Positions 4,620 to 52,088 of a stretch of DNA of 64,000 nucleotides are shown here, in pieces; position 1 is the first letter of the stretch, and the number at the start of each line of letters is the position of its first letter. The stretch is from contig JBBJNV010000011.1 of NCBI GenBank assembly GCA_037721215.1, positions 1 to 64,000 on the forward strand. Direction: 5' to 3'. This DNA is from Gemmatimonadaceae bacterium. Its GTDB lineage: Bacteria; Gemmatimonadota; Gemmatimonadetes; Gemmatimonadales; Gemmatimonadaceae. The translations under genes and the position numbers were made by a program. The notes beneath the pieces were generated by a model that made no database searches, had not been told where the DNA came from, and saw nothing but the letters and a program-made list of their open reading frames with translations.

Positions 4620-5282
4620 CTAGACGCCGGTCGAGTAGGTCTTGCCGCGACGGTCTTCGACAATCTCGCCCTTGAAGATCCAGACCTTCACTCCAATGGT
4701 GCCGAAGGTGGTCTTCGCCGTGGATGTCGCGTAATCGATGTCGGCCCGAAGCGTGTGCAAAGGCACGCGCCCTTCGTGGTAACCCTCGGTTCGCGCGATT
4801 TCAGCGCCACCCAGACGTCCGCCGCACTTGATCTTGATTCCACCGGCGCCCATTCGCATGGTGCTCTGCACCGCGCGCTTCATGGCTCGGCGGAACGAGA
4901 TGCGCTGCGCAAGCTGATTGGCGATGTTGTCCGCCACCAGCTGCGCGTCGAGCTCCGGACGCTTTATCTCTTCGACATTGATACCGACTTCCTTGCCACT
5001 GATCTGCGCCAGCTCGTCGCGAAGCTGATCGACTTCGGTGCCCTTCTTACCGATGACGACGCCCGGACGTCCGGTGTGAATCGTGACGACGACCTTGCCC
5101 GGCTTCCGCTCGATGCGGATGTCCGCGATCGCAGCATGCCCAAGACGCTGCTTGAGATAGTTGCGAAGCAGCTCGTCCTCGCGCAGCAGCGCTGGAAAGT
5201 CACGGTTGTTCGCGTACCATGTGGAGCGCCACGTCTTGGATATTCCAAGACGGAAGCCGATCGGATGTGTCTTCTGTCCCAT
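4620..5282 (-). CDS. rpsC: 30S ribosomal protein S3
   Basis: A 220-residue S3, part of the mRNA entry tunnel. The start [20 protein letters not shown] is diagnostic. A KH domain with [17 protein letters not shown] follows, and the C-terminal S3 domain contains [17 protein letters not shown] and [19 protein letters not shown]. Its start codon overlaps the rplV stop as TAATG. Length is standard and no tail is present, in contrast with L22 just upstream. Confidence 0.97.
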
Positions 5283-5821
5283 TACTTGCCTTCCTTCGCG
5301 CCGACGACAATGTGGATGTGGCTCGTGCGCTTCTGAATTGGAGTTGCGCGCCCCTGGGCCGCGGGCATGAACCGCTTGATCTTCGGACCTTCGTTTACAA
5401 TCGCGTGCTTGATGAAAAGCGTATCGACGTCCAGTGACTCATTCGCTTCACGCGCCTTGTACTCGGCATTTGCGACCGCGCTGTTCAGCGTCTTTGCGAT
5501 CTGAACCGCAGCGTGCTTCTTGGAGAACTTGAGAAGGCCAAGTGCCTCATTCACGTTCTTGCCGCGAATCTGATCGATCACGAGACGCATCTTGTACGGC
5601 GACTGGCGTGTGCCACGCTGAATTGCGCGGACATCGGCCATTACAGGAGCGGACTTCGCCACCTTGCGAGCGCCCGTCTTCTTCGTCGTCGTTTTCCGGG
5701 CGCCCGTCGCTCCGGCTGTCGACTGCTTAGCCGCGGTCTTGCGGGCGGCGGATTTTCCGGTGCTCGCTTTCTTCTCCGCGCCCCCAGTTCCCTTCCTGCC
5801 TCCCTGCTTACGCGCCGCCAT
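5282..5821 (-). CDS. rplV: 50S ribosomal protein L22 with Lys/Ala/Thr-rich N-terminal extension
   Basis: L22 lines the exit tunnel with a long beta hairpin. The core starts around residue 63 ([20 protein letters not shown]) and includes [12 protein letters not shown] and the C-terminal hairpin [16 protein letters not shown] followed by SHIHIVVG. The total length is 179 residues against about 110-115 normally. The surplus is a head of Lys, Ala, Thr, Gly and Arg resembling a histone H1 tail. There is an internal ATG at VMADVRAIQ which would give an ordinary L22, so the extended form depends on the ATG at 5821, only 2 nt from the rpsS stop. Confidence 0.93.
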
Positions 5822-7279: not shown

Positions 7280-8251
7280 CTACCTCCCCTTCTTCTTGGC
7301 CACGCGCTTCGTGGTTTTCTTTGCGACGCGTTTCGTAGCTGGCTTCTTCTTGGCCGCGGTTTTCTTCGCAGCCGTCTTGCGGCCGACAGTCTTCGCCACC
7401 GCCTTCCGGGTTGCCTTTCGCGCCGTCCTGGTCGCCTTCTTTGCGGTCCGCGCAGTTTTCTTCGCGGCCGTAGTAGTCTTGGTCGCGGATTTCGTGACCT
7501 TCTTTGCCGCTCTCGTGCGCTTTGCAGACTTCTTTCGCGCCGGTTCCGCCTTTACCGCTATTTCCGCCTTGTCTGCTCTTTCCCCTTGAGCTTCCTCGGT
7601 GGTCTCGGTGGTCTCGGTGTCCGTAACACCCGCCCCAAACGCTCCAGACTCGACGATCACCACGTCCGACCAAAGCAGGTGATATGTCGACACATCCGAG
7701 TACGGGAGCACGTGAGTGCGGGGCAGGTTCCGCCCGCTCATGTAGACGTTCGGATTCACTCCATCGGTCAGGATGAGGACTTTCCTGTCCCCGACGCCGA
7801 GCGTGTTCAGCAGGCCGAGCAGCTGGGAGGTCTTGGGAGACTTGTAATCGAATGCGTCGATGACGATGACCGCGTTCTCGCGAGCGCGGGCATTGAACGC
7901 GCTCTTCCGGGCAAGTGCTCTGACTTTGCGCGGGACCGATTGCGCGTAGCTGCGCGGCGTCGGGCCGAACACGGTGCCACCGCCAACCCACTGCGGCGCG
8001 CGGATTGAACCCTGTCGCGCACGACCGGTGCCCTTTTGCTTCCAGGGCTTGGCATTGCCACCGATCACGAAACCGCGGGTCTTGGTCGAAGCGTTGCCTT
8101 GGCGCTGGTTCGCGAGGTACGCTTTGACCGCCTGGTGCATCACCGGCATGTTGATCGTACCGTCGAACAGATCGCCGGGCAGTGCGAACGCATCGCGCGC
8201 ACCACCCGCGGAATCGTATGAGGCTGCATTCATTGAAGTATTCTCGGCCAT
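7280..8251 (-). CDS. rplD: 50S ribosomal protein L4 with long Lys/Ala-rich C-terminal tail
   Basis: L4 lines the exit tunnel. In E. coli it is also the autogenous repressor of the S10 operon leader. The core (about residues 20-215) has [41 protein letters not shown] and the [19 protein letters not shown] region. The protein is 323 residues against about 205 in most bacteria. The last 100 or so residues are repeated AKK, ATK, RKA and KKTA units like a histone H1 tail. A glutamate- and threonine-rich linker separates core from tail. Given the conserved leader upstream of rpsJ, L4 is the first candidate for an autoregulator, but this is inference. Confidence 0.94.
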
Positions 8252-8948: not shown

Positions 8949-9257
8949 CTACTCGACCTTGATTTCGACGTCGACGCCAGCCGGGAGATCCAGCTTGGTG
9001 AGCGCATCGACTGTCGCAGCGCGGCTGTCGAGAATGTCGATGAGCCGTTTGTGCGTCTTGAGCTCGAACTGCTCGCGGGATTTCTTGTCCACGTGCGGGG
9101 AGCGCAGCACCGTCCAGCGCTTTGTCTTCGTCGGGAGCGGAATGGGCCCCGATACCTGAGCACCCGTCTTTTCCGCCGTACGGACGATGTCTGCTGACGC
9201 CTGGTCGATCACTGCGTGATCGAACGCCTTGAGACGGATGCGAATTCTGCCTGCCAT
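8949..9257 (-). CDS. rpsJ: 30S ribosomal protein S10, first gene of the S10 operon
   Basis: A 102-residue S10, also known as the transcription antitermination factor NusE, which pairs with NusB and NusG. The start [19 protein letters not shown] at 9257 is chosen on conservation, and GAGGT lies about 12 nt upstream. The open frame extends 18 codons further into the leader, but that part is not conserved. [19 protein letters not shown] is the family signature. It is the first gene after a structured leader of about 195 nt, so it is exposed to any attenuation control there. Confidence 0.96.
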
Positions 9258-9311: not shown

Positions 9312-9419
9312 TCAACAAAAACGCGGCTGGACCTGGCGCCCTATAAAGGGCCGGTATCCATCCGCTGCCGCCGGGTGCACCCGCAACTGGAACGCGGATG
9401 GGGACTCGAGGCGCGCCGG
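9312..9419 (-). ncRNA. structured 5' leader element of the S10 operon (copy A)
   Basis: This 108-nt element in the rpsJ leader, read on the minus strand, matches the leader of fusA at 92 of 109 aligned columns. The first 20 nt and the last 15 nt are identical between the two copies. In RNA sense it has, in order: a GC-rich 5' block; a strand CCAUCCGC (9401-9394); a hairpin CGGG-UGCA-CCCG; a strand GCGGAUGG (9365-9358) complementary to the first strand over 8 bp; a nested hairpin GCCCU-UUAU-AGGGC; the strand UCCAGCCGC; and U5. It ends 54 nt before the rpsJ start. I do not recognise it as a named RNA family. Confidence 0.75.
9317..9365 (-). terminator. terminator-like attenuator hairpin in the rpsJ leader
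   Basis: In minus-strand sense, GCGG-A-UGGA-UA-CC pairs with GG-UCCA-G-CCGC around the nested GCCCU/AGGGC hairpin. GUUUUUGUU follows at once. This is the layout of an intrinsic terminator, placed upstream of the first gene of an essential operon. The upstream strand at 9394-9401 can capture the 5' arm over 8 perfect base pairs, so the terminator and antiterminator folds exclude each other. Confidence 0.6.
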
Positions 9420-9460: not shown

Positions 9461-9488
9461 AATTTACTCGGCTTCGGATGGGAGTCAA
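9461..9488 (-). promoter_or_regulatory. candidate promoter for the S10 operon
   Basis: Minus-strand TTGACT (9488-9483) and TAAATT (9466-9461) are separated by 16 bp. AAGGCT (9457-9452) lies exactly 25 nt after the -35 hexamer, the same spacing as upstream of fusA. A start there would give a leader of about 195 nt that contains element A. The -10 match is only moderate. Confidence 0.5.
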
Positions 9489-38695: not shown

Positions 38696-39800
38696 AGTGA
38701 TGACCGTTGTCGGCACCAGGCCCGAGCTGATCAAGCTTTCACGTGTGATCGCGGAACTGGATCACCAGGTCGATCACGTCCTCGTGCATACCGGCCAGAA
38801 CCACGACTTCGAGCTGAATGAGGTGTTTTTCCAGGATCTCGGGATTCGCCGGCCCGATCATTTTCTCAACGCAGCAGGGGCGAACGCGGCCCAGACGATC
38901 GCGCGCGTCATCGAACGGCTGGATGCAATACTCGAAGTTCGCCGCCCAGATGCCGTGCTCGTCCTGGGCGACACCAACTCCTGCCTCGGGGCGATCGCCG
39001 TGAAGCGGCGCAAGATCCCGATATTCCACATGGAGGCCGGCAACCGCTGCTTCGACCTCCGTGTGCCCGAAGAGATCAACCGGAAGATCATCGATCACCT
39101 GAGTGACATCAATCTCGTCTACACCGAGCACGCTCGCCGCTACCTGCTCGCCGAAGGCATCCGCCCGGACACGGTGATCAAGACAGGCTCACCAATGCGA
39201 GAGGTTCTCTCACATTTCTCCAGCGTTATCGAGGCGTCGGACGCAATGTCGGCTCTGGGCCTCGAACCGGACGGATTCTTCATCGTCTCCGCTCATCGTG
39301 AAGACAACGTTGATGATCCTGTTCGCCTGGCGACGCTGCTCAGGAGCCTCGACTCGCTTGCCACGGAATTCGGAAAACGCGTGCTCTTTTCGGTGCACCC
39401 GCGAACGCGCGCGCGGATGGCAACGTACGGGCTTTCTTCAAGCCCGTCCGTCGCATTTCTGAAGCCGCTGGGATTCTTCGACTACGTCAAGCTCCAGATG
39501 AACGCCTTCTGCGTAGTGTCCGATAGCGGAACCCTCACAGAAGAGGCGTCGATCCTCGGCTTCCCCGCGATCACGATACGTGACGCCCACGAGCGGCCGG
39601 AGGGCATGGACGAGGGGACGCTCATCATGACGGGCGTGGATGCGGAGCGAATGGTCCATGCAGTCCGGGTTCTCCGGTCACAGCCCCGGAGCGGTACGCG
39701 CCAGATCACGGATTACGGGGCCGACAACGTTTCAATCAAAGTCGTGCGGATCATTCTCAGCTACATCGATTTCGTCAGGCGAACCGTGTGGTATCAGTGA
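38688..39800 (+). CDS. wecB: non-hydrolysing UDP-HexNAc 2-epimerase (WecB/WbjD/CapG family)
   Basis: A 370-residue GT-B-fold epimerase. The N-terminal MTVVGTRPELIKLSRVIAEL, then VHTGQNHDFELNEVFF, VLGDTNSCLGAIAVKRRKIP and HMEAGNRCFDLRVPEEINRK are the expected blocks. The C-terminal SDSGTLTEEASILGFPAITI is conserved. It would catalyse the last step, C2 epimerisation to UDP-L-QuiNAc or UDP-L-FucNAc. It overlaps the dehydratase by 8 nt and the next glycosyltransferase by 4 nt. Confidence 0.92.
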   Translation: MPEVMTVVGTRPELIKLSRVIAELDHQVDHVLVHTGQNHDFELNEVFFQDLGIRRPDHFLNAAGANAAQTIARVIERLDAILEVRRPDAVLVLGDTNSCLGAIAVKRRKIPIFHMEAGNRCFDLRVPEEINRKIIDHLSDINLVYTEHARRYLLAEGIRPDTVIKTGSPMREVLSHFSSVIEASDAMSALGLEPDGFFIVSAHREDNVDDPVRLATLLRSLDSLATEFGKRVLFSVHPRTRARMATYGLSSSPSVAFLKPLGFFDYVKLQMNAFCVVSDSGTLTEEASILGFPAITIRDAHERPEGMDEGTLIMTGVDAERMVHAVRVLRSQPRSGTRQITDYGADNVSIKVVRIILSYIDFVRRTVWYQ

Positions 39801-41014
39801 CCGAACGCCTGATGCGCATTGCACTCGTCGCCGATGCATACAAGCCTCTCCGCTCGTCGGCGGCCGTACAGATCCGGGATCTGGCTCACGAGCTGGCGGC
39901 ACAGGGTCACTCCCCAACGGTAATCGTGCCCGCAATCCAACTCGAGCGCGACTGGAGTCTGGAGAACGACGACGGTGTAGAGGTCCTGCGCGTTTCTGCA
40001 CCACGCACCAAGGACGTGGGAAATGTGCGCCGCGTCTTGTCAGAGCTGCTGCTCCCCTATGTCATGCTGAGAAGATTCTCTCAGAGCCCGCTGTCCGGCC
40101 GCCAGTGGGACGCAGTCGTCTGGTATTCTCCTTCCATTTTCCTCGGGCCGCTGGTAAGCCGGCTGAAGCGGGCCTACCATTGCCCGAGCTATCTCATTCT
40201 TCGGGATATGTTTCCGGAGTGGGCGGTGGACACGGGCGTGATCGGAAGAGGCCCCGCTTTCCACCTCTTCAAACGAGTGGCCCGATATCAGTACTCGCTG
40301 GCCGACACGATCGGAGTTCAGTCTCCGGCCAATCTCGGACTGTTCGATGGTAGCGACGGTTCCGGGCAGCGGAGGGTTGAAGTCCTCAACAACTGGCTCG
40401 CTGAACCGAGGAACGCTCAGAGCCCTGTCTTGGTGTCAGAGACCACCTTGGCAGGCCGGACCATCTTCGTATACGCCGGCAACATGGGAGTATCGCAGGA
40501 CATGCCCGCCGTGCTACGGCTCGCCGAGCGCATGCAGAGCCGGCAAGATGCCGGTTTTTTCTTCGTGGGGAGAGGCACCGAGGTCGATAAGCTTCGGGCG
40601 CTGGCAATGCAAATGAAGCTGGACAACACCCTCTTCCATGGCGAAATCGAGCCTTGGGAAGTCCCCGGAATGCTCGCGCAGTGCCACATTGGCATCGTCA
40701 CTCTGGATCTCCGCCACAAGACACACAACGTGCCCGGCAAGTTTCTCAATTACCTGCAGGCGGGTTTGCCGGTCCTTGCACGACTGAATCCAGGTAATGA
40801 CCTGGAGAAACTGATTCGGGACGAAGGGGTCGGCCTTTCCTGCAGTGATCCATCGATCGAGCTGTTCCATGAGTTAGCGGTTAAGCTGCTGGACGATCGT
40901 GGGTCGTTCGAACACGCAGCAGCGAGAGGAAAGGAACTGGCACAACGCATGTTCTCGGTGCGGGCAGCAGCTGCGCAAATCGTCGATCGGTTGCAGAACT
41001 CCAACGGCCAGTGA
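39797..41014 (+). CDS. glycosyltransferase family 4, WbuB-like (6-deoxy-L-HexNAc transferase candidate)
   Basis: A protein of about 405 residues. The opening MRIALVADAYKPLRSSAAVQ, the LILRDMFPEWAVDTGVI segment and the donor-domain IFVYAGNMGVSQDMPAVLRL with VPGKFLNYLQAGLPVLA match the WbuB type. That enzyme adds L-FucNAc or L-QuiNAc in loci with the same gene order. The GTG at 39797 overlaps the epimerase stop as GTGA. An ATG at 39812 is an alternative. The C-terminus FSVRAAAAQIVDRLQ is echoed by a remnant 220 nt downstream. Confidence 0.85.
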   Translation: MTERLMRIALVADAYKPLRSSAAVQIRDLAHELAAQGHSPTVIVPAIQLERDWSLENDDGVEVLRVSAPRTKDVGNVRRVLSELLLPYVMLRRFSQSPLSGRQWDAVVWYSPSIFLGPLVSRLKRAYHCPSYLILRDMFPEWAVDTGVIGRGPAFHLFKRVARYQYSLADTIGVQSPANLGLFDGSDGSGQRRVEVLNNWLAEPRNAQSPVLVSETTLAGRTIFVYAGNMGVSQDMPAVLRLAERMQSRQDAGFFFVGRGTEVDKLRALAMQMKLDNTLFHGEIEPWEVPGMLAQCHIGIVTLDLRHKTHNVPGKFLNYLQAGLPVLARLNPGNDLEKLIRDEGVGLSCSDPSIELFHELAVKLLDDRGSFEHAAARGKELAQRMFSVRAAAAQIVDRLQNSNGQ

Positions 41015-41237
41015 CGCCGAATCGAGGGCGCACGTGCTTAGTCAGGTCTGAGTCTTCCGGCATTCATGGACGGAACGGGATCGGTGCCGTGAGACACAGA
41101 ACGCAGGGGGCGATAGAGCTGTTACATGTTTCCTGAGGCCGTTCTGCCCGCCTCTCTACTCAGCGCGTTCCTTGTGAGCGTGCTGGTAGGGCTCCTTTTC
41201 GTCGGCCGAGGCGGCCAGCTTCCGCTTTTACGGGCAA

Positions 41238-41291
41238 ATGTTTTCCGTGGCCGCCGCAGCCGAGCAGATCATCGAGGTGCTGAAGAGGTAG
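41238..41291 (+). pseudogene. 3' tail remnant of a WbuB-like glycosyltransferase
   Basis: The plus strand reads MFSVAAAAEQIIEVLKR followed by a stop. This closely resembles the end of the preceding intact enzyme, MFSVRAAAAQIVDRLQ. Only this tail is recognisable. The 220 nt between the two show no continuous homologous frame. It is best explained as what is left of a second, deleted or recombined transferase copy. Confidence 0.6.
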
Positions 41292-41366
41292 CAGGAACCA
41301 GGCGCCGGGCCGGGAACCCGCCACCGCGACCCGCATTTTAGACGGGCAACCGGTGGCGAACCGGGC

Positions 41367-43856
41367 TCATTTCGTATGGCCATACGCATACGGATGGCCC
41401 TGAGCGTAACCGTAGCCGTATTCGTATCCATACCCGGGCTGCCTGGGATCGAAGCCATTTACAACCGTACCGCCGACCTGCACGCGCAGGTGATGCAACT
41501 GAGCTGCCGCGTGGTGTAGCGCCCTCTTGTCTGTAACTCCGGCACGCGCTACCAGAAACGTCGAGTCGGCAAGTGTTGCCAGCACGGCCGCGTCGGACAC
41601 GAAGTTCAGGGGCGGCGTATCTATCACAATCATGTCGAACTGCTGCCTCAACTCCTCGAGTAGATTCAGCATCTGGACGGATCCAAGGAGCTCCGCCGGG
41701 TTGGGTGGAAAGCGACCCGATGCCAGAAGATGAAGCACGTTCCCTTCACCGTCGACAGGAACTGTCTGGAGCGCCGCCGCGACAGTCGATTTGCCGATGA
41801 GAAGCTGCGTGAGACCGGGCTCACGCGATACGCCAAACAGCTTGTGGAGGACGCCCTGCCGCAGATCGGCGTCGATCAGCAGGGTGCGTGTCCCGCGGCG
41901 AGCGAGCGTCAGGGCAAGATTGGACGCGGTCGTGCTTTTTCCGTCGCCGGGAAGAGCGCTCGTGATGAGCAATACCTGATTCGGGTGATCAGCGGGGACG
42001 AAGAGGATGTTTGTCCGGAGGCCGCGATATGCCTCGGCGAATACGTCTCCTGAGTCAAGCTGCGTAATCAAGGCTGTGCCTGAAGCGGCGCCCGCGGGTG
42101 CAATCGCTGCCGCAGCCGTCCCACCATTGGTACCCTTCAGTATTGCACGCCCTGTGGCTGGCATGACGGGGATGGCGGCCAATATGGGCAGCCCGCCGGT
42201 GACGCTCTGAACGTCTTCTCTTGTTCTCACCTTTGTATCGAGCGCATCCCTGGCAACCGCCAGCCCGCCGCCAAGAAAAAGTCCGAGCAGTGCTCCAAGC
42301 ACTATGTTGCGTACCGGCTTCGGTGAAGTCGGGCGATCCGGAATCAGCGCGCGATCTATCACGCGAACTCCTCCCGGCTGCACAGCTAACTTGATCTCAG
42401 CTTCCTTCAGCCGGGTCTGCAGGAGAGTTGAGATATCTTCGAGCAGCTTCTGCTCGCGCGAAAGGCGGGCAAACGCGATCTCCCGCGCAGGAATTTTTTC
42501 TACCTGAGCGCCGAAGGACCGAATGGTGGTATTGATCGACGAGAGCTTGCTGTCGAGGCCAACGAGATAGGCCCGGGCCATCTGGGTCAGCTGGCCATCG
42601 AGATCGCCGATTCGCTGCGAAACAGCCACCACGTCAGCGTTCCCGGGATTGCGGCGAACGAGGAGCTGAGACCGTTCGTTCTCCAGCACAATCAGGGATT
42701 GGAGAATGTCCTGCATGCCCCGGTTCGTGATGAATGAGGGGAAAGCGGCTATGTCCCGCGCGGCGCTCGCCCCGGGCGCCGGCTGCTTCGCGAGCACGCT
42801 GGCGAGTGACCGGCTCTCCGACTCTATCTGCTCGCGCTCGGCTTGCAGCTCCGCCATGCGCCTTACCTGGGCCTGGGCCTCGTCGGCAATGCTCACAACT
42901 TTGGCTTCTTCCCGATATCCACCCAGGGCCGACTCTGCCCCCTTCAATTGGCGCTCATAACTCCCCACCTGCTCTTTCAGAAAAGAGACTGTAGTGGTGG
43001 CCTCGGACTTTGTGGTCTGGGCCTTGTAAAGCATGAATTCGTGGAGCAGAAGATTCGGCACCGCCGCGGCCTCCAAACGGCTGTTGCTCTCATACCGGAC
43101 GTTGATAATCTGTGCCTCTCTGCTTGCCCTTGAGACATTCAGGTTTTTTCGCATCGCGTCAACCGCACGCCGCAAAGGGCGAACTCGAAGGGTGAGCTCC
43201 GGCGGGAGAGAGGCGCCGGCCGGCTGCTCCAGAACGAGCGCCGCCCTTCCAATCGAAAACGGCTTGCCTTTTTCCACCATTGCGGGAAGAGCGGCGCGGG
43301 CCCCGCCGCTCGTCTGACGTATCGCGTAGATGCCGTTCGCCTTTCTCGTCAGCACGAACTCTGATTCGGCCATGTCTGCCGGAATGTTGAGCACGCGTAT
43401 CGCGCGACGCGCGTCAGATGGGCCTGGCACCTCGAGATTTAAATGCAGTGCCTGCGCGACGTTCTCGGCAAGCTGCCGGCTGCGCAACACTTCGATCTCG
43501 GTCAGAATAGCCCCGCCATTCATTCCCGGGAGGGCCACGGCTTCGCTAAGCGGAGATCGTCCGCCGTCCTTGTCCTCGATTCGGATGGTCGCGCTGCTCT
43601 GGTAAACTGGATCAGCCATCTGCGTGTAAATCGCAGCAGCGGCCACGGTGGCCACCGCAACCCCGGCAACGAGCCAGCGGTTTCTTCGAAAGGCGAGGGA
43701 GAGTTGCCCGAATGAAAGCGGGTCGCTTTCCACCCTGATTGCCTGAGCAAAAGTGGTCTCTTGGTCATCCATCGGCCCGGGGCCACGGTTATCCGCAAGC
43801 CGGGGTTGCGACCCGGACGAAGTGACGGCCACATCTACGCGGGAGTTTCTATTCAT
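41367..43856 (-). CDS. wzc: polysaccharide co-polymerase and bacterial tyrosine kinase (Wzc type)
   Basis: An 829-residue inner-membrane protein controlling polysaccharide chain length and export. The first membrane segment is near residue 60 (WLVAGVAVATVAAAAIY), with a long periplasmic Wzz/GNVR part rich in coiled coil and a second segment before the kinase (VRNIVLGALLGLFLGGGLAV). The kinase has Walker A SALPGDGKSTTASN near residue 635, Walker A' TLLIDADLRQG, and Walker B MIVIDTPPLNFVSDA. The C-terminus is a tyrosine cluster with six Tyr alternating with Gly after PRQPGYGYEYG, the autophosphorylation tail. It starts 2 nt after the wza stop. Confidence 0.94.
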   Translation of the reverse strand: MNRNSRVDVAVTSSGSQPRLADNRGPGPMDDQETTFAQAIRVESDPLSFGQLSLAFRRNRWLVAGVAVATVAAAAIYTQMADPVYQSSATIRIEDKDGGRSPLSEAVALPGMNGGAILTEIEVLRSRQLAENVAQALHLNLEVPGPSDARRAIRVLNIPADMAESEFVLTRKANGIYAIRQTSGGARAALPAMVEKGKPFSIGRAALVLEQPAGASLPPELTLRVRPLRRAVDAMRKNLNVSRASREAQIINVRYESNSRLEAAAVPNLLLHEFMLYKAQTTKSEATTTVSFLKEQVGSYERQLKGAESALGGYREEAKVVSIADEAQAQVRRMAELQAEREQIESESRSLASVLAKQPAPGASAARDIAAFPSFITNRGMQDILQSLIVLENERSQLLVRRNPGNADVVAVSQRIGDLDGQLTQMARAYLVGLDSKLSSINTTIRSFGAQVEKIPAREIAFARLSREQKLLEDISTLLQTRLKEAEIKLAVQPGGVRVIDRALIPDRPTSPKPVRNIVLGALLGLFLGGGLAVARDALDTKVRTREDVQSVTGGLPILAAIPVMPATGRAILKGTNGGTAAAAIAPAGAASGTALITQLDSGDVFAEAYRGLRTNILFVPADHPNQVLLITSALPGDGKSTTASNLALTLARRGTRTLLIDADLRQGVLHKLFGVSREPGLTQLLIGKSTVAAALQTVPVDGEGNVLHLLASGRFPPNPAELLGSVQMLNLLEELRQQFDMIVIDTPPLNFVSDAAVLATLADSTFLVARAGVTDKRALHHAAAQLHHLRVQVGGTVVNGFDPRQPGYGYEYGYGYAQGHPYAYGHTK

Positions 43857-43858
43857 CG

Positions 43859-44485
43859 TCAGCGAAGGAGGAGCGTGAGGGCGACGGTTGCAACAGAGAG
43901 CCCAGCGCTGATAGCAAGCGCGCCGTTACGATCGAGCCAGCCTCGCCGGTCAACGAATATCTGGTCGTCCGACCGTATGTCGATTACGCTCAGCGACGAG
44001 CCGGCGGCTGCCCGGTCAAGGATGGCGGTGCCGTTGCGCACCACACGCAGACGATTCAAGTCACCGGCAGGTGTGGCTCCTCCCGCCATGGCAACCACAC
44101 CCGCAAGGCTCATGGTGGGGTCAACGGCATAAGGGCCAGGCTTGGTCACCTCGCCCAGCACATACACCCGCCTCAACGGCGTGACGGTAATCGACGGATT
44201 TCGGAGCTCGACAGAGTACCCCGCAACCAGCATGTCCCGAAGCTTCGACATCGGGATATCGAGAAGCGTGATCTTACCAAGCAGCGGAAGCGTAACGACT
44301 CCGAGTTCATCCACCACAAAATCGCCGCTAAGGTCTGGTTCGCGCCATACCGATATTCGAACTATGTCTCCTGGTGCCAGCGCAATGGCGCCGGATTGCG
44401 ACCCGCTGGCCGGAACCTGGGCGTCGACGGTCCCGAGGGACGCGAGGAGCAGGAGTGTGATACATGCGACCCTGCGAATTTGCAT
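43859..44485 (-). CDS. wza: outer-membrane polysaccharide export protein (Wza type, short)
   Basis: A 208-residue protein with a signal peptide (IRRVACITLLLLASLGTVDA). The polysaccharide export domain has ALAPGDIVRISVWREPDLSG and VVDELGVVTLPLLGKI. A SLBB domain has VYVLGEVTKPGPYAVDPTMS and LAGVVAMAGGATPAGDLNRL. It lacks the further SLBB and C-terminal helix domains of full Wza (about 360-380 residues), but ends in a hydrophobic stretch (GALAISAGLSVATVALTLLL) that may act as membrane anchor. It forms a transcription unit with wzc. Confidence 0.9.
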   Translation of the reverse strand: MQIRRVACITLLLLASLGTVDAQVPASGSQSGAIALAPGDIVRISVWREPDLSGDFVVDELGVVTLPLLGKITLLDIPMSKLRDMLVAGYSVELRNPSITVTPLRRVYVLGEVTKPGPYAVDPTMSLAGVVAMAGGATPAGDLNRLRVVRNGTAILDRAAAGSSLSVIDIRSDDQIFVDRRGWLDRNGALAISAGLSVATVALTLLLR

Positions 44486-44965
44486 ACAACCCGCCTAAAT
44501 AGGAAACGTGGTAAACAGAGCGTGCACTTAAGACACCGATGGCGCCCTTATGTAACCCTTTTTGAAAACAATTTCCGCCGTTTACTGCCGCTTGACGTGA
44601 CGAGTGTCGCCGGTGCGGTCGTCGATTCGCTGACCTTTCCGCGAGTGTGTCTGGAATGACCGCGTACGCTGCCGACTGGCAGAGGCAAGTCTCATTCCCG
44701 ATAAACATTCGTTGCCAAGCCTAGGATCGGGCATCAGATAGCAATGTAGCGAAAAATCATGCCACCACCTAACACCTGCTCCGCAGATCCCATCGAGATC
44801 ATCCAGCCCCTCGTACAGGAGTCCGCCCGCTTCTTTCTCGGCGCCGCTGTGGAACTCCACATAACGAACCGGCAAGTCGCCGGAATAATTTCCGGTTGGG
44901 CGTGGGCTGCCGAACCCCGCGCTGCAGGATTGCCGTAGAAGCGTACTACGCGTATGCTTATTCCT
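44486..44965. other. intergenic region between wza and the VapBC pair
   Basis: A 480-nt divergent spacer. It must contain the wza-wzc promoter on the minus strand and the vapB promoter on the plus strand. A minus-strand frame over about 44730-44940 has fair composition but no recognisable domain. No repeats were seen. Confidence 0.4.
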
Positions 44966-45190
44966 ATGAAAACTACGCTGATTCTTCCCGATAGTCTCGT
45001 GCGCACTCTCAAACGCCGAGCCGTGGAGCGCGGCACGACGCTCTCTCACGTCGTGGCCGAAGCATTGCACCGCGGCCTGCGGAAGGAGCCGAAGACAGCT
45101 TTGCCGCCGCTGCCTTTGCATCGCCTGGGCGTCGCCCGCGCCGACGTCGCCGATCGCGATGCCCTGTATCAGGCAATGGAAGGCCGCTAG
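44966..45190 (+). CDS. vapB: VapB-type ribbon-helix-helix antitoxin
   Basis: A 74-residue protein starting MKTTLILPDSLVRTLKRRAV, the beta-strand and first helix of a ribbon-helix-helix DNA-binding fold. RGTTLSHVVAEALHRGLR follows. The C-terminal part is Pro- and Leu-rich and would bind the toxin. The ATG at 44966 is preferred over one four codons earlier. The toxin gene begins 1 nt after its stop, so they are co-translated. Confidence 0.87.
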   Translation: MKTTLILPDSLVRTLKRRAVERGTTLSHVVAEALHRGLRKEPKTALPPLPLHRLGVARADVADRDALYQAMEGR

Positions 45191-45191
45191 C

Positions 45192-45638
45192 ATGTTCGTC
45201 GTCGATACGAACCTGCTCCTTTACGCGGTCAATCCGGATGCGCCCGAGAATCCGAGCGCCCGTGCACTCGTCGAGGAGTGGCGGCGCGGAGATCGCTCGT
45301 GGTTTCTGACATGGAGCATTATTTACGAGTTCCTGCGCGTGAGCACGCACCCGAGAGTGTTTCCTCAACCGCTCGACCTGCCTCGCGCTCAAGCCTGGAT
45401 AGCGACGCTGCTCGCCTGCCCCCCGGCCGGCTTACTGGTACCAACTGACCGTCACATGGCGGTGCTCCAGGAGCTGGCAGAGCGTCTTCCACGCCTGCGC
45501 GGCAACATCGTCCACCACCTGCATACCGCCGTGCTCATGCGCGAGCACGGCGTCTCCGAGATCCGCACCGCGGACGCGGACTTTCACCAGTTCGCGTTCC
45601 TCGAGGTCACCAATCCGCTTGCCGACGTTCGCCCGTAG
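45192..45638 (+). CDS. vapC: VapC-type PIN-domain toxin
   Basis: A 148-residue PIN-domain protein. The first acidic site is in MFVVDTNLLLYAVN, the second in WSIIYEFLRVSTHPRVF, and the last in IRTADADFHQF. The third site, usually Asp in a VHDAH-like motif, reads VHHLHTAVLMREHG, so an Asp appears to be replaced by His. This could weaken or alter nuclease activity. It lies 190 nt from the tuf stop, between the polysaccharide island and the fusA-tuf operon. Confidence 0.87.
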   Translation: MFVVDTNLLLYAVNPDAPENPSARALVEEWRRGDRSWFLTWSIIYEFLRVSTHPRVFPQPLDLPRAQAWIATLLACPPAGLLVPTDRHMAVLQELAERLPRLRGNIVHHLHTAVLMREHGVSEIRTADADFHQFAFLEVTNPLADVRP

Positions 45639-45786
45639 TCCACGGTTCCGATCATTGCAACGTGTTCGCGGTCGGCCTCGCCGGGACGATCATCAGCGAC
45701 ACCGGTCAGAAGCTCAGGGGCACGCAGTCGTCCGGCCGCTTGACGCCGATCAACGACGTATCGACCGACAATCCTGAAAAGCAGGA

Positions 45787-45822
45787 CCAAAGACCGCGCG
45801 GGTGACACCGCGCGGTCTTTGG
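45787..45822 (-). terminator. strong terminator hairpin after tuf
   Basis: A perfect 15-bp inverted repeat (45787-45801 with 45808-45822) closes a 6-nt loop and begins 6 nt after the tuf stop codon. The outer part is A/T-rich (CCAAAGA/TCTTTGG) and the inner part GC. On the minus strand a short T4 lies about 6 nt further on. The symmetry may also let it work for the converging plus-strand vapBC transcript. Confidence 0.85.
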
Positions 45823-45828
45823 TGTTTG

Positions 45829-47022
45829 TTACTTGAGGATCTTTGTAACTACGCCGGCACCGACGGTGCGGCCGCCCTCTCTGATTGCGAACCGGAGACC
45901 CTCGTCCATCGCGATCGGCGTTATCAGCTCGATCGTCATCTGTACGTTGTCGCCCGGCATCACCATCTCCATCCCTTCCGGAAGCTCTACACTCCCCGTT
46001 ACGTCCGTCGTCCTGAAATAGAACTGCGGACGGTAACCCTTGAAGAACGGCGTATGCCTTCCACCCTCCTCCTTCGTCAACACATACACCTCGGCCAGAA
46101 AGTTCGTGTGAGGCGTGATGCTGCCCGTCTTGGCCAGCACCATTCCGCGTTCCACATCGTCCTTCCCAACCCCACGAAGCAACAGACCAACGTTGTCGCC
46201 AGCACGTCCCTCGTCCAGCAGCTTCCGGAACATCTCGACACCCGTGATCACCGTCTTCTTGTCAGCGTTGAAGCCGATCAGCGAGACTTCCTCGCCCACC
46301 TTGACGATGCCTCTTTCAATTCTGCCCGTCGCTACCGTACCACGACCAGTGATCGAGAACACGTCCTCGACCGGCATGATAAAGGGCTTCTCCACCTCTC
46401 GCTCGGGCTGCGGGATATAGGAATCAAGAGCGTCCATCAGCTCCGTGATCTTCTTCCCCCACTCGCTCTCGGGGTCGCCTGACTCCAGCGCCTTGGTCGC
46501 ACTCCCCTGGATGATCGGCGTATCGTCGCCCGGGAAGCCATAGGACGAGAGGAGCTCTCTCACTTCCAGCTCCACCAGCTCCAGCAGCTCCGGATCGTCG
46601 ACCATGTCGACCTTGTTCATGAACACCACGATGTAGGGCACGTTCACCTGCTTGGCCAGCAGGATGTGCTCTCGCGTCTGCGGCATCGGGCCGTCAGCAG
46701 CACTCACCACCAGGATCGCACCATCCATCTGCGCGGCACCGGTGATCATGTTCTTCACGTAATCGGCGTGGCCCGGGCAGTCGACGTGAGCGTAGTGTCG
46801 CTTTACGGACTCGTACTCGACGTGGGCGGTAGCGATGGTGATGCCGCGCGCCTTCTCTTCCGGGGCTTTATCGATCTGGTCGAAGGCCACCGACTGAGCC
46901 AGGCCCTTCTTCGCCTGAATCGCCGTGATCGCCGCGGTAAGTGTCGTCTTCCCGTGATCGACGTGGCCGATAGTGCCAACGTTTACGTGCGGCTTGTTTC
47001 GCTCAAACTTTGCTTTTCCCAT
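45829..47022 (-). CDS. tuf: translation elongation factor Tu
   Basis: A 397-residue EF-Tu, which delivers aminoacyl-tRNA to the ribosome as a GTP complex. G1 is [14 protein letters not shown] near residue 19, G2 is [13 protein letters not shown]3 is [12 protein letters not shown], and G4 is [18 protein letters not shown]. The C-terminal barrels end in [12 protein letters not shown]. Length is normal. It is 26 nt downstream of fusA, and a strong hairpin follows. In many bacteria rpsJ comes next; here it is about 36 kb away. Confidence 0.98.
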
Positions 47023-47048
47023 TCTCTATATCCTCTTCAGTGCGTTCG

Positions 47049-49208
<2,160 letters not shown>

Positions 49209-49247
49209 CGGATACTCGAAGGCTTGTTGGGTGCGATCTGTTCAGGA

Positions 49248-49356
49248 TCAACAAAAACGCGGGTGGACCATTTCGCCCCGCGAAGGGCAGGTATCCATCC
49301 GCAGCCGCCGGGTGCGCCCGTGGCTGTAACGCGGGCGGGGACTCGAGGCGCGCCGG
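49248..49356 (-). ncRNA. structured 5' leader element of the fusA-tuf operon (copy B)
   Basis: This 109-nt minus-strand element is the partner of the rpsJ leader element, with 92 of 109 aligned columns identical and one single-base gap. The central hairpin is CGGG-CGCA-CCCG. The nested hairpin GCCCU-UCGC-GGGGC keeps its pairing although loop and closing base differ from copy A (U-A there, U-G here). The strand CCGCCCGC (49338-49331) pairs with GCGGAUGG (49302-49295) with one G-U and one mismatch. It ends 39 nt before the fusA start. Confidence 0.75.
49253..49302 (-). terminator. terminator-like attenuator hairpin in the fusA leader
   Basis: GCGG-A-UGGA-UA-CC pairs with GG-UCCA-C-CCGC around the nested hairpin, and GUUUUUGUU follows. 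The same pairs form as in the rpsJ leader, with only the internal A-G mismatch changed to A-C. Position before the first gene and the competing upstream strand suggest conditional termination. Confidence 0.6.
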
Positions 49357-49398
49357 ACTCAACGATGAACCCGGCGGTAAGTTTGTGAACAGCCTTGA

Positions 49399-49427
49399 AT
49401 AATCACATTCGCGTGAGCTGGTGTCAA
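49399..49427 (-). promoter_or_regulatory. candidate promoter of fusA-tuf
   Basis: Minus-strand TTGACA (49427-49422) and GATTAT (49404-49399) are 17 bp apart. AAGGCT (49396-49391) lies 25 nt after the -35 hexamer, as upstream of rpsJ. This is a good sigma-70-type match and would give a leader of about 185 nt. Confidence 0.6.
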
Positions 49428-49851
49428 CACGGAACTGGCGCTGGTAGTGGTACCGTTTGAATCTGTGCGGGGTGGGCGATCGCCTATAACCCTGCGGCGC
49501 GTGTTTACCACTACCACTGCGAAAAGCCTGAATTTGCGTCGAGGCGGGCGCTGGCGTCTCTGTACTACGCTATGTTTCAACCGGCGACCTGCCCGCAGAG
49601 CCCTCGGTTGCAAGAAAACACGATTCGGGTCCTAAAGTGCCTCCTGAAGGAAACTCAGATCGACTGGCGGGAGAGCGAGCATTGGCTGCGTTACAACTGG
49701 CGGAACCAACTCGCAGTTCGCAGAGCAGCGCAACTGTTGCGAATCGCCGCACCAGAAGGCCGCGCGGCGCTCCATGAGCTCCGCGAATCTTATTGCGTTT
49801 CTCCGATCATCCCCGAAAAGCCGCTTTTTTTCGCCACGCGATCGGTCGTAA
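49428..49851. other. divergent intergenic region between fusA and a glycosyltransferase gene
   Basis: A plus-strand frame from about 49620 to 49850 has reasonable composition (LLKETQIDWRESEHWLRYNW, EGRAALHELRESYCVSP). It could be the end of a decayed gene, but I recognise no domain and it runs out of frame into the next gene. Nothing else is supported. Confidence 0.4.
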
Positions 49852-50736
49852 GTGAAAGCAACATTTCCCACAGTCAGCGTTCTCATCACGGCGTACAATC
49901 GCGAGACGTTCATCGGCGAAGCGATTGAAAGCGTGCTTCGCTCGTCCCTTGAGGATCTGGAGATCGTAATCGTCGACGATGATTCGAGCGACCAGACCGC
50001 AGAGATCGCACGCAGGTACGCGGCCGCCGACCCGCGAATAAGACTGTTTGTCAACCAAACGAACCTGGGCGACTACCCGAACCGGAATCGCGCCGCGAGC
50101 CACGCGAAGGGCATATATCTCAAATACGTCGATTCCGATGACGTAATCTACCCCCATGGGCTCGAGGCGATGGTGAGATGTATGGAAGCGTTCCCTGACG
50201 CCGGGCTTGGCCTCTCGGCTCTGCCGGATCCCGCTGGCCCGTGTCCACGGCTGCTCTCGCCCGTAGAAGCGTACCGGGAAAATTTCTTCTATCGCGATCT
50301 CCTTGGCCGTGCCCCCGGATCGGCAATCATAAGGCGGTCGGCGTTTAATGCGGTTGACGGCTTTTCAGGCCGTAAGCAGGTTGGGGACCATGAGCTTTGG
50401 CTCAAGTTGGCCCGTCGTTTTCCGGTTGTTAAAATGCCCACGGATCTCGTCTGGGACAGGCAGCATCCCGATCAGGAACAGAATTACGACAGCACGGTCG
50501 AGAAGGCCGTTATGCACGAAGGGGTGCAGATCGCCGCACTCGCAGCGCACGACTGCCCCTTGTCGGAGCACGAGCGGGACGACGCTCTGGGCCGCCTCCG
50601 CGAGGCCAGCGCCAGGAAATACTGGTATTTTCTGCGAAGCGGCGGAGGGTGGCGCATCGCTCAGGAGTACCGCGGCCGCGCTTCAGTACCCTCTCGCGCG
50701 ATCCTGAGTGTAGCGTGGAATCGCTTAGCGAGGTGA
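49852..50736 (+). CDS. glycosyltransferase family 2
   Basis: A 294-residue GT-A enzyme starting at a GTG. VSVLITAYNRETFIGEAIES, LEIVIVDDDSSDQTAEIARR and the metal motif KYVDSDDVIYPHGLEAM are the family core. RKQVGDHELWLKLARRF supplies the catalytic-base region (ED/D-like). It opens a second plus-strand glycosyltransferase cluster beyond fusA, separate from the main island, and may serve the same or another glycan. Confidence 0.87.
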   Translation: MKATFPTVSVLITAYNRETFIGEAIESVLRSSLEDLEIVIVDDDSSDQTAEIARRYAAADPRIRLFVNQTNLGDYPNRNRAASHAKGIYLKYVDSDDVIYPHGLEAMVRCMEAFPDAGLGLSALPDPAGPCPRLLSPVEAYRENFFYRDLLGRAPGSAIIRRSAFNAVDGFSGRKQVGDHELWLKLARRFPVVKMPTDLVWDRQHPDQEQNYDSTVEKAVMHEGVQIAALAAHDCPLSEHERDDALGRLREASARKYWYFLRSGGGWRIAQEYRGRASVPSRAILSVAWNRLAR

Positions 50737-50842
50737 ACCCGAATCGCCACGACCGCCACCATCCTGGTCAGCGACGTATCGGCGGAGCGCTTCGACGTCT
50801 CGGGGCGTCGTTTCTGACGTTTTGAAAGGGCAAACGAACTCC

Positions 50843-50913
50843 TGCATAGCGATCGTCGACTACGACATGGGCAACGTTGCATCTGTCCGAATACGCTGAA
50901 GCGAATCGGTGCC
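50843..50913 (+). pseudogene. N-terminal fragment of a HisH-type glutamine amidotransferase
   Basis: The plus strand reads CIAIVDYDMGNVASVR, then after a one-base frame change NTLKRIGA. Together these parallel the conserved HisH opening, IAIVDYGMGNLRSV followed by a KR-G helix. Nothing of the catalytic Cys region follows. HisH paralogues occur in polysaccharide loci that amidate sugars, which may be the origin, but the fragment is too short to tell it from the histidine-pathway gene. Confidence 0.65.
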
Positions 50914-51167
50914 CTCCTGCCTTTTCACCACGACGAACCCGTCACTGGTGCGCGCGGCCACTCAACAGGATGGATCTACAAGTGTGATCGGATCAATCGA
51001 TCACAGGAAGGATATCTATAGAAGGCAGCAGGTCTACTCGGCAACTGGCGTCAAGACGCGACGCAAGCTTGTCGATCATTGTAAGTTTCTCGCTGACGAG
51101 CTGGGGCGACAGCGCGTGCGCTGCACAGGTCATCCGCTGATGGCGGATTCGGAGTGAACTCTTTTAG

Positions 51168-52088
51168 ATGAGAATTGTGCCCACGCCGGACCCACTCTTT
51201 TCCGTTCTTGTCGCAAGCTATTGCAATGGCCCCTACCTTGAGGCGGCAGTTGAATCGGTACTGCGGCAGTCTTACGCCAACTGGGAGCTTGTAATTGTCG
51301 ACGACGCGTCAACTGACAACTCGGTAGACGTCCTCTCACAATGGCGAACGGACCCCCGTGTTCGAGTCATGACGCATGCGGTCAATCAGGGCGCAGGTGC
51401 TGCTTTCGCCACTGCGGCAGCGGCGGCGTCTGGAGAATTGATGGGCATGCTGGGGGCCGACGACGCTCTGACAGCCAACGCACTCGAAAAAATGGCCGAT
51501 GCCCACGCCCGCCATCCGGCAGCGAGTCTCATAAACAGCGACCAGACAATATGCGGCGTCAATCTGGCGCCCCTGGGAATCGCAAGTCCGTTTGGCCCGC
51601 GGCTTTCTGGAAGTAGTTTGATTTACGATTGCTCAGTATCCAATTTTGCGACTTTTAAGCGTTCGGCCTACGTTCGTACGCGTGGATTCGACCCGGCATT
51701 TCGCAGGGCTGTCGACCATGACCTCTACCTGAAACTCGAAGAGGTTGGCGAGCTGGAGTACGTGGCCGAACCGCTGTACCTGTATCGCACTCATTCAGGC
51801 GGTATTTCACAGGGGACGAACGGCATCCTTGCTGCTCAGTACGCGCTTGTGGCGCGAGCAAATGCATACAAGCGCCGTCGGGGAACAATCGTACCGAACC
51901 TTACACGCAGGGAATTCCGGGAAGCGATGAGCACCTACCACGCCAGGCAGGCAACGCTGCAGGTGAGCGCTTCGCGGCTCGAACGTCTTCAGCATCGGAT
52001 CAGGTCAGTGCTGTTTCGGCCACTCGGTGTCCTCGCCAGCTCATTCTGGCTCCACACGGTTCGTCGCTTTTCATTGCGGCGAGCATAG
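51168..52088 (+). CDS. glycosyltransferase family 2
   Basis: A 306-residue GT-A enzyme. FSVLVASYCNGPYLEAAVES, WELVIVDDASTDNSVDVLSQ, and the donor-site GMLGADDALTANALEKM show the family. The acceptor part has FATFKRSAYVRTRGFDPAF and RAVDHDLYLKLEEVGELEYV. The C-terminal 60 residues are basic. It is followed at 14 nt by a family 4 transferase, so they form an operon. Confidence 0.88.
   Translation: MRIVPTPDPLFSVLVASYCNGPYLEAAVESVLRQSYANWELVIVDDASTDNSVDVLSQWRTDPRVRVMTHAVNQGAGAAFATAAAAASGELMGMLGADDALTANALEKMADAHARHPAASLINSDQTICGVNLAPLGIASPFGPRLSGSSLIYDCSVSNFATFKRSAYVRTRGFDPAFRRAVDHDLYLKLEEVGELEYVAEPLYLYRTHSGGISQGTNGILAAQYALVARANAYKRRRGTIVPNLTRREFREAMSTYHARQATLQVSASRLERLQHRIRSVLFRPLGVLASSFWLHTVRRFSLRRA

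Follow-up and report, generated by a model that had tools for sequence, protein, structure and literature searches.

The 64,000-nt stretch of DNA analyzed here (the window; GCA_037721215.1, contig JBBJNV010000011.1, positions 1-64,000 of the forward strand, from a Gemmatimonadaceae bacterium) contains two copies of a structured RNA leader, one upstream of rpsJ and the other upstream of fusA. We propose that they represent a so far undescribed leader of the fusA-tuf-S10 operon, found across the order, which would have been duplicated when this operon split and which is most likely a transcription attenuator. The leader has a conserved structure and a terminator-like 3' end, it is strictly associated with fusA or rpsJ, and it is retained or gained when the operon is rearranged.

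The shared leader before rpsJ and fusA had already been noticed in the initial annotation, and the pairwise alignment reproduced its description. The two stretches of 108 and 109 nt are identical in 92 of 109 columns, with one single-base gap, and their first 20 and last 15 nt are the same. Copy 1 is in sense orientation to rpsJ and ends 54 nt before the ATG at 9257; copy 2 is in sense orientation to fusA, 39 nt before the ATG at 49208. A BLAST comparison of copy 1 with copy 2 gave 84% identity (E = 2e-27). These two are the only strong leader copies in the 3.5-Mb genome, the next BLAST match being only 25 nt long (E = 0.002), and the 14-mer CCGCGTTTTTGTTG, a word shared at the 3' end, was found at the two leader sites only (0.03 occurrences expected). 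The gene rpsJ (S10; 8949-9257, minus strand), identified as an open reading frame and by tblastn against relatives, is the first gene of a detached S10 operon. The genes fusA (49208-47049) and tuf (47022-45829), also identified by tblastn against relatives, form the other half of the split operon (45829-49208, minus strand).

The initial annotation mentioned neither the terminator-like 3' hairpin, which is the best conserved part of the element, nor the P1 helix; the segment that it had marked starts downstream of the 5' arm of P1 (CGCCGG, 9437-9432 and 49376-49371) and of a conserved ACAAC. According to the covariance model R1 the limits of the element are better set at 9446-9312 for copy 1, in the 5' leader of rpsJ, and at 49386-49248 for copy 2, in the 5' leader of fusA, which we consider the ancestral place (both on the minus strand). 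The model itself aligned to 9446-9313 with 134.5 bits (E = 4e-37) and to 49386-49249 with 120.7 bits (E = 6e-33). A scan for promoter-like sequences found a putative promoter of the rpsJ unit, TTGACT-16-TAAATT (9461-9488, minus strand), and the transcript is likely to start near AAGGCT (9457-9452). A putative promoter of the fusA unit, TTGACA-17-GATTAT (49399-49427, minus strand), was read from the sequence. AAGGCT and ACAAC are common to the rpsJ and fusA copies, and an A/T-rich, -10-like sequence together with A(A/G)GGCT also precedes other copies in the genus of the window.

An alignment of 27 sequences supports a model with three hairpins, P1, P2 and P3, which matches the RNAalifold result. 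All helices lie on the minus strand. In copy 1, P1 (9414-9437) is formed by CGCCGG (9437-9432) and CCGGCG (9419-9414), and four of its six pairs covary. In P2 (9369-9413) three of the five pairs of the inner hairpin (9399-9395 with 9383-9379) covary, while the outer part is nearly invariant. P3 (9323-9365) is the best conserved hairpin and has the form GCGG-A-UGGA-UA-CC ... GG-UCCA-G-CCGC. By structural alignment the corresponding parts of copy 2 are P1 at 49351-49376, P2 at 49306-49350 and P3 at 49259-49302, the latter being supported also by a switch between clades. In the 27 sequences 97.4% of the paired cells can pair, compared with 92.6% after shuffling; double changes affect 61 cells, where 18 are expected from shuffles, and changes on both sides occur at 11 pairs. 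This covariation signal collapses in a control in which the partners were slid.

The clade switch in P3 concerns two pairs: 86 copies have UGGA/UCCA and 47 have GCGA/UCGC, with no mixed forms (0). The outer pairs of P3 hardly vary in the family of the window, and two of them change together in sister families. The latter have other hairpins in place of P1 and P2, and P3 with its U-tract is the core of the element. The folding energy of the two single copies is unremarkable (z = -1.3 and +1.2 against shuffles); because single copies fold no more stably than shuffled sequences, the structural case rests on covariation. The initial annotation had suggested that the differences between the two copies concentrate in hairpin loops. 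This is only partly correct since some of the differences are compensatory changes in helices; an example is pair 9399-9379 of P2, with A-U before rpsJ and G-C before fusA. The compensatory changes in relatives for which it had asked are present, both in the 27-sequence alignment and in the P3 switch of the sister families. The conserved RNA structure with covariation that characterizes ribosomal leaders (r-leaders) is hence found here.

Two other pairings were considered and rejected. One single-sequence fold pairs CAGC, ahead of P3, with GCUG, behind the U-tract, but there is no covariation between these two segments. The rpsJ copy could form an antiterminator between GCGGGUG in P2 and CACCCGC in P3, which relatives have not conserved. 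Inspection by eye revealed no conserved alternative (antiterminator) pairing of P1 or P2 with P3.

In a DNA search, 52 of 59 genomes from the window's family contained the element, and every copy that was read lay just upstream of fusA. We built R1 on 27 copies and a second model, R2, on the 3' hairpin alone. R1 matched about 127 of the 140 genomes sampled in the window's family and 30 genomes of two sister families; overall, 158 of 395 sampled Gemmatimonadota genomes were positive. With R2 this number was 196 of 395, including 68 genomes in the two sister families. Outside the order Gemmatimonadales R2 gave four matches only, with E values from 4e-4 to 0.009, which is about chance level. In a pattern scan of 84,980 species, 76 of the 80 matches listed were in Gemmatimonadota, and the four others are at the level of chance (about 4 expected, as an estimate); matches in Clostridia, Hafnia, Aquificaceae and Neglectibacter were off the consensus, had no translation gene downstream and were discarded. 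Three congeners without a sound leader match also have no fusA in their assembly. From the counts of R1, R2 and the pattern scan the element therefore appears to be nearly universal in, and limited to, one order, Gemmatimonadales.

Some copies are more elaborate. A conserved block, CUCCCGAAAAGCRACGCAGGACAAU, lies about 90-120 nt upstream of P3, with hairpins before it, in L018, L023, L027 and others; it leads many copies of the family and is absent in the genus of the window. L026, L034 and L020 have long insertions with an extra hairpin in the P1 loop, and the rest of their leader is kept. One genome (G264; L117 and L118) has two leader-fusA units on different contigs, which may reflect a strain mixture or contamination and not a true second copy.

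The genes behind the leader are always the same. The matches were found by sequence, not by gene, and among 140 distinct copies with readable downstream DNA the next gene is fusA in 136, rpsJ in 4 and anything else in 0. The element is consistently upstream of these genes of translation operons on the same strand (140/140), as is typical for an r-leader. The initial annotation had predicted copies before fusA and rpsJ, which is what we found, and also before rpsL, where none occurred. The same data bear on the idea that the two copies are a repeat or mobile element, or are conserved for some other reason. Two near-identical copies in one genome are what a dispersed repeat would leave; however, there are two copies only in this genome and one in most relatives, the gene context is fixed and the helices carry compensatory changes. 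We consider the probability of this explanation close to negligible. The statement in the initial annotation that the copies are not part of a mobile element is well borne out, and the matches of a covariance model across the order indicate that they are not a private repeat.

The initial annotation saw the element mainly as an RNA that joins two separate regulons. The cis-located, structured RNA of translation operons stands; the joining of two regulons needs revision because relatives have one continuous cluster with one leader before fusA. Long contigs were available for 12 relatives from other genera; in each, a single run comprises fusA-tuf-rpsJ-rplC and the remainder of the S10 operon, with one leader, located before fusA, and the S10 genes follow tuf in 12/12. 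In the two sister families the leader lies inside the str cluster, in the order rpsL-rpsG-[leader]-fusA. Most genomes of the window's family have rpsG at another site and keep the leader in front of fusA.

The window genome has fusA-tuf (49208-45829) 36 kb away from rpsJ (9257), each half with its own leader. In eight sampled congeners rpsJ is directly behind tuf, and none of them has a second leader there (8/8; in two of the eight the contig holds only the last codons of tuf). A second leader was found in the four congeners in which rpsJ is detached or spaced from tuf. Besides the window genome these are G258, with tuf, a 343-nt gap containing the leader and then rpsJ, and G317 and JADGQR010000247, where the 1.5 to 3 kb ahead of leader and rpsJ contain no tuf. 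A promoter-like start region accompanied the leader of the new rpsJ unit. The fact that a leader was gained where rpsJ left tuf suggests that the leader follows the control of the S10 genes when the old control is lost, and on comparative grounds this gain appears to be the strongest functional argument. The operon split can be read as a natural test of function, in which the detached half gained promoter and leader and the eight congeners with an intact junction lack them. In a tree of the leaders the rpsJ copies do not form one clade, and the sequence is too short to resolve the duplication. At the operon break point a small open reading frame (45159-45638, plus strand), which may encode a PIN-domain (VapC-like) protein, is convergent with tuf. 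The detached fusA-tuf pair lies among genes for glycosyltransferases and polysaccharide export (39788-52088).

The 3' end of the element resembles an intrinsic terminator. P3 is followed by one nucleotide and then by UUUUUGYUG; the resulting U-tract, TTTTTGTTGA, is at 9312-9321 in copy 1 and, with an identical end, at 49248-49257 in copy 2 (both minus strand). P3 has a mean energy of -24 kcal/mol, and at least 4 U occur in the first 6 nt after it in 102/102 copies, three of these U being fixed by the search pattern; positions fixed in this way appear conserved through the selection of matches. GYUG is still kept although it was not fixed in the pattern, and conservation ends directly after it. 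A GC-rich hairpin with a U-tract upstream of a start codon, as in known attenuators, is present. A simple terminator scan of the window did not flag P3 because of its internal loops. A point against an attenuator is that the U-tract is short, with five U after a purine. The conservation of GYUG is more than a plain terminator needs. Judged from its sequence, P3 with the U-tract has the anatomy of a transcription attenuator.

Alternatively, the element might be an r-protein leader that acts on translation or mRNA stability: a protein would bind P1-P3 and repress the first cistron, with the U-tract as part of the binding site. In E. coli, most leaders of r-protein genes do act on translation (PMC10931766), and the conservation of GYUG after the U-tract would fit a binding site. 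However, the distance between U-tract and start codon varies from 21 to 207 nt among the copies, which argues for an action on transcription and not for direct masking of the ribosome site; the Shine-Dalgarno region is outside the conserved block and has no conserved pairing with it, and the U-tract after the GC hairpin is constant. We regard this explanation as rather unlikely.

Together, these results make it probable, though well short of certain, that the element is a cis-regulatory attenuator leader of the fusA-tuf-S10 operon of Gemmatimonadales. The nascent 5' leader would fold into P1, P2 and the bulged P3, directly followed by UUUUU-GYUG. P3 and the U-tract would then act as an intrinsic terminator, or as a pause site plus terminator, and a trans factor would tune the read-through. 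This factor would most likely be an operon-encoded ribosomal protein in excess over rRNA, which binds the conserved irregular part of P3, i.e. the A/C mismatch, the two-nucleotide bulge and the asymmetric inner loop. When the operon broke between tuf and rpsJ, promoter and leader would have been duplicated so that both halves kept their control. Termination by P3, its regulation and the identity of the ligand are what we infer from the features described above; regulation in particular is suggested because a fixed terminator behind the operon's own promoter makes little sense.

The latter point also bears on a simpler explanation, namely that the element is a constitutive partial terminator or a processive antitermination element, which merely sets the expression level of a long operon. 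The operon is indeed long, and other families of the class (L262, L269 and L265) also have terminator-like hairpins between rpsG and fusA. In the window's family, however, the leader comes first in the operon, after a putative promoter of its own, and a fixed terminator at this place would only be wasteful; moreover, a plain terminator does not need the strictly conserved internal loops of P3. This makes the explanation very improbable. The hairpins in these spacers are of different sequence. L262 (3648-3608, minus strand; family f6, outside the order) has a divergent P3-like hairpin followed by UUUU, GCGGAGGUGC...GUGCCCCGCGUUUU, which may be a distant homologue of P3 as judged from its sequence. 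L269 and L265 have terminator-like hairpins and then U-runs of unrelated sequence. The rpsG-fusA spacer may be a recurring position for attenuation.

As to the ligand of the proposed attenuator, uL4 is the first candidate by precedent: the E. coli protein promotes Rho-independent termination in the S10 leader (PMC10931766). By this analogy uL4 may be the regulator, and its gene is present in the intact unit as well as in the detached one; S10, uL3 or another operon protein may serve as well. uS7 is a weaker candidate, since most of the window's family no longer has its gene in the unit, although the position of the leader between rpsG and fusA in the sister families makes S7 or an elongation factor also a possible ligand. 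At the sequence level no resemblance of R1 or R2 to the 16S or 23S rRNA of a family member was detected (R1 without a match, R2 at chance level only, shared words of 9 nt or less), so no ligand is supported by mimicry. P3 contains GGAU..GAUACC..GGU..UCCAC, which we take to be a look-alike of 16S helix 24; it is lost in the sister families and was dropped. The uL4 gene of the window (7280-8251, minus strand) is long; its product has 323 aa, of which about 110 form a C-terminal tail that is rich in Lys, Ala and Thr and resembles histone H1. uL22 (5282-5821) and uL5 (2021-2779) have N-terminal extensions similar to this tail. These extensions could matter for RNA binding.

The leader could also respond to something other than an r-protein, such as EF-G, EF-Tu, a nucleotide like ppGpp or a NusB/NusE (S10) antitermination complex, and in this way tie the elongation factors to ribosome synthesis. 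Except in the rearranged genomes, fusA is the first gene; the leader of the sister families comes after rpsL-rpsG and controls only fusA onward, and S10 (NusE) is encoded in the operon. However, the element has no boxA-like match and no match to a known riboswitch family, the genes behind the rpsJ copies are those of the S10 operon only, with no fusA or tuf among them, and we found no precedent for an EF-G or EF-Tu leader in the studies consulted. We judge such a sensor improbable. In its strongest form, the element would be the first RNA known to sense EF-G/EF-Tu or a global translation signal and to set elongation factors and r-proteins jointly by attenuation, which we consider distinctly improbable; if elongation factors were sensed, the rpsG-[leader]-fusA layout of the sister families and the copied rpsJ leader would follow.

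The leaders of r-protein genes differ from phylum to phylum, and the uS7/str control of E. coli acts at the rpsL-rpsG intercistronic region. The sister-family element is likewise inside the str operon; unlike the uS7 site, it is between rpsG and fusA and not between rpsL and rpsG. The element also resembles the uL4-regulated S10 leader of E. coli (Gammaproteobacteria) in being a 5' leader of S10-operon genes with an end like that of a Rho-independent terminator, and feedback by an operon protein is the use proposed here. It differs in that the first gene is normally fusA, that there is no Rfam-detectable similarity and that the P1-P2-P3 layout is specific to Gemmatimonadales; a test at the sequence level revealed neither homology to the E. 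coli type nor mimicry of the uL4 site in 23S rRNA. In agreement with the initial annotation, which recognized no named RNA family and thought that the element may be undescribed, a search of Rfam 15 gave no family at gathering score and only chance matches (E up to 5).

In streptococci a transcription attenuator has been predicted between rpsG and fusA (PMC2965389). It is placed before fusA and follows the same logic; in contrast, the present element belongs to a different phylum, and covariation across two clades and a duplication to rpsJ are seen here. The rpsL motif of Candidatus Pelagibacter is a three-stem junction known only from SAR11 and marine metagenomes, with no terminator reported (PMC2704228). 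Like the present element it is a structured RNA that leads a long str-S10-spc cluster and occasionally stands before fusA, but its structure, from its description, is unrelated. The 20 ribosomal leader candidates of Eckert and Weinberg include none in Gemmatimonadota and none before fusA (Table 1 in PMC7247131). The RNA family is well supported and missing from Rfam 15, and the main surveys consulted give no ribosomal leader for its phylum; it would add an independent leader solution in which EF-G is encoded by the leading gene. The evidence for it, covariation together with a consistent r-protein gene context, is of the same kind as for the leaders of Eckert and Weinberg (PMC7247131), and the element appears to be a new RNA family of a known kind, a putative r-leader.
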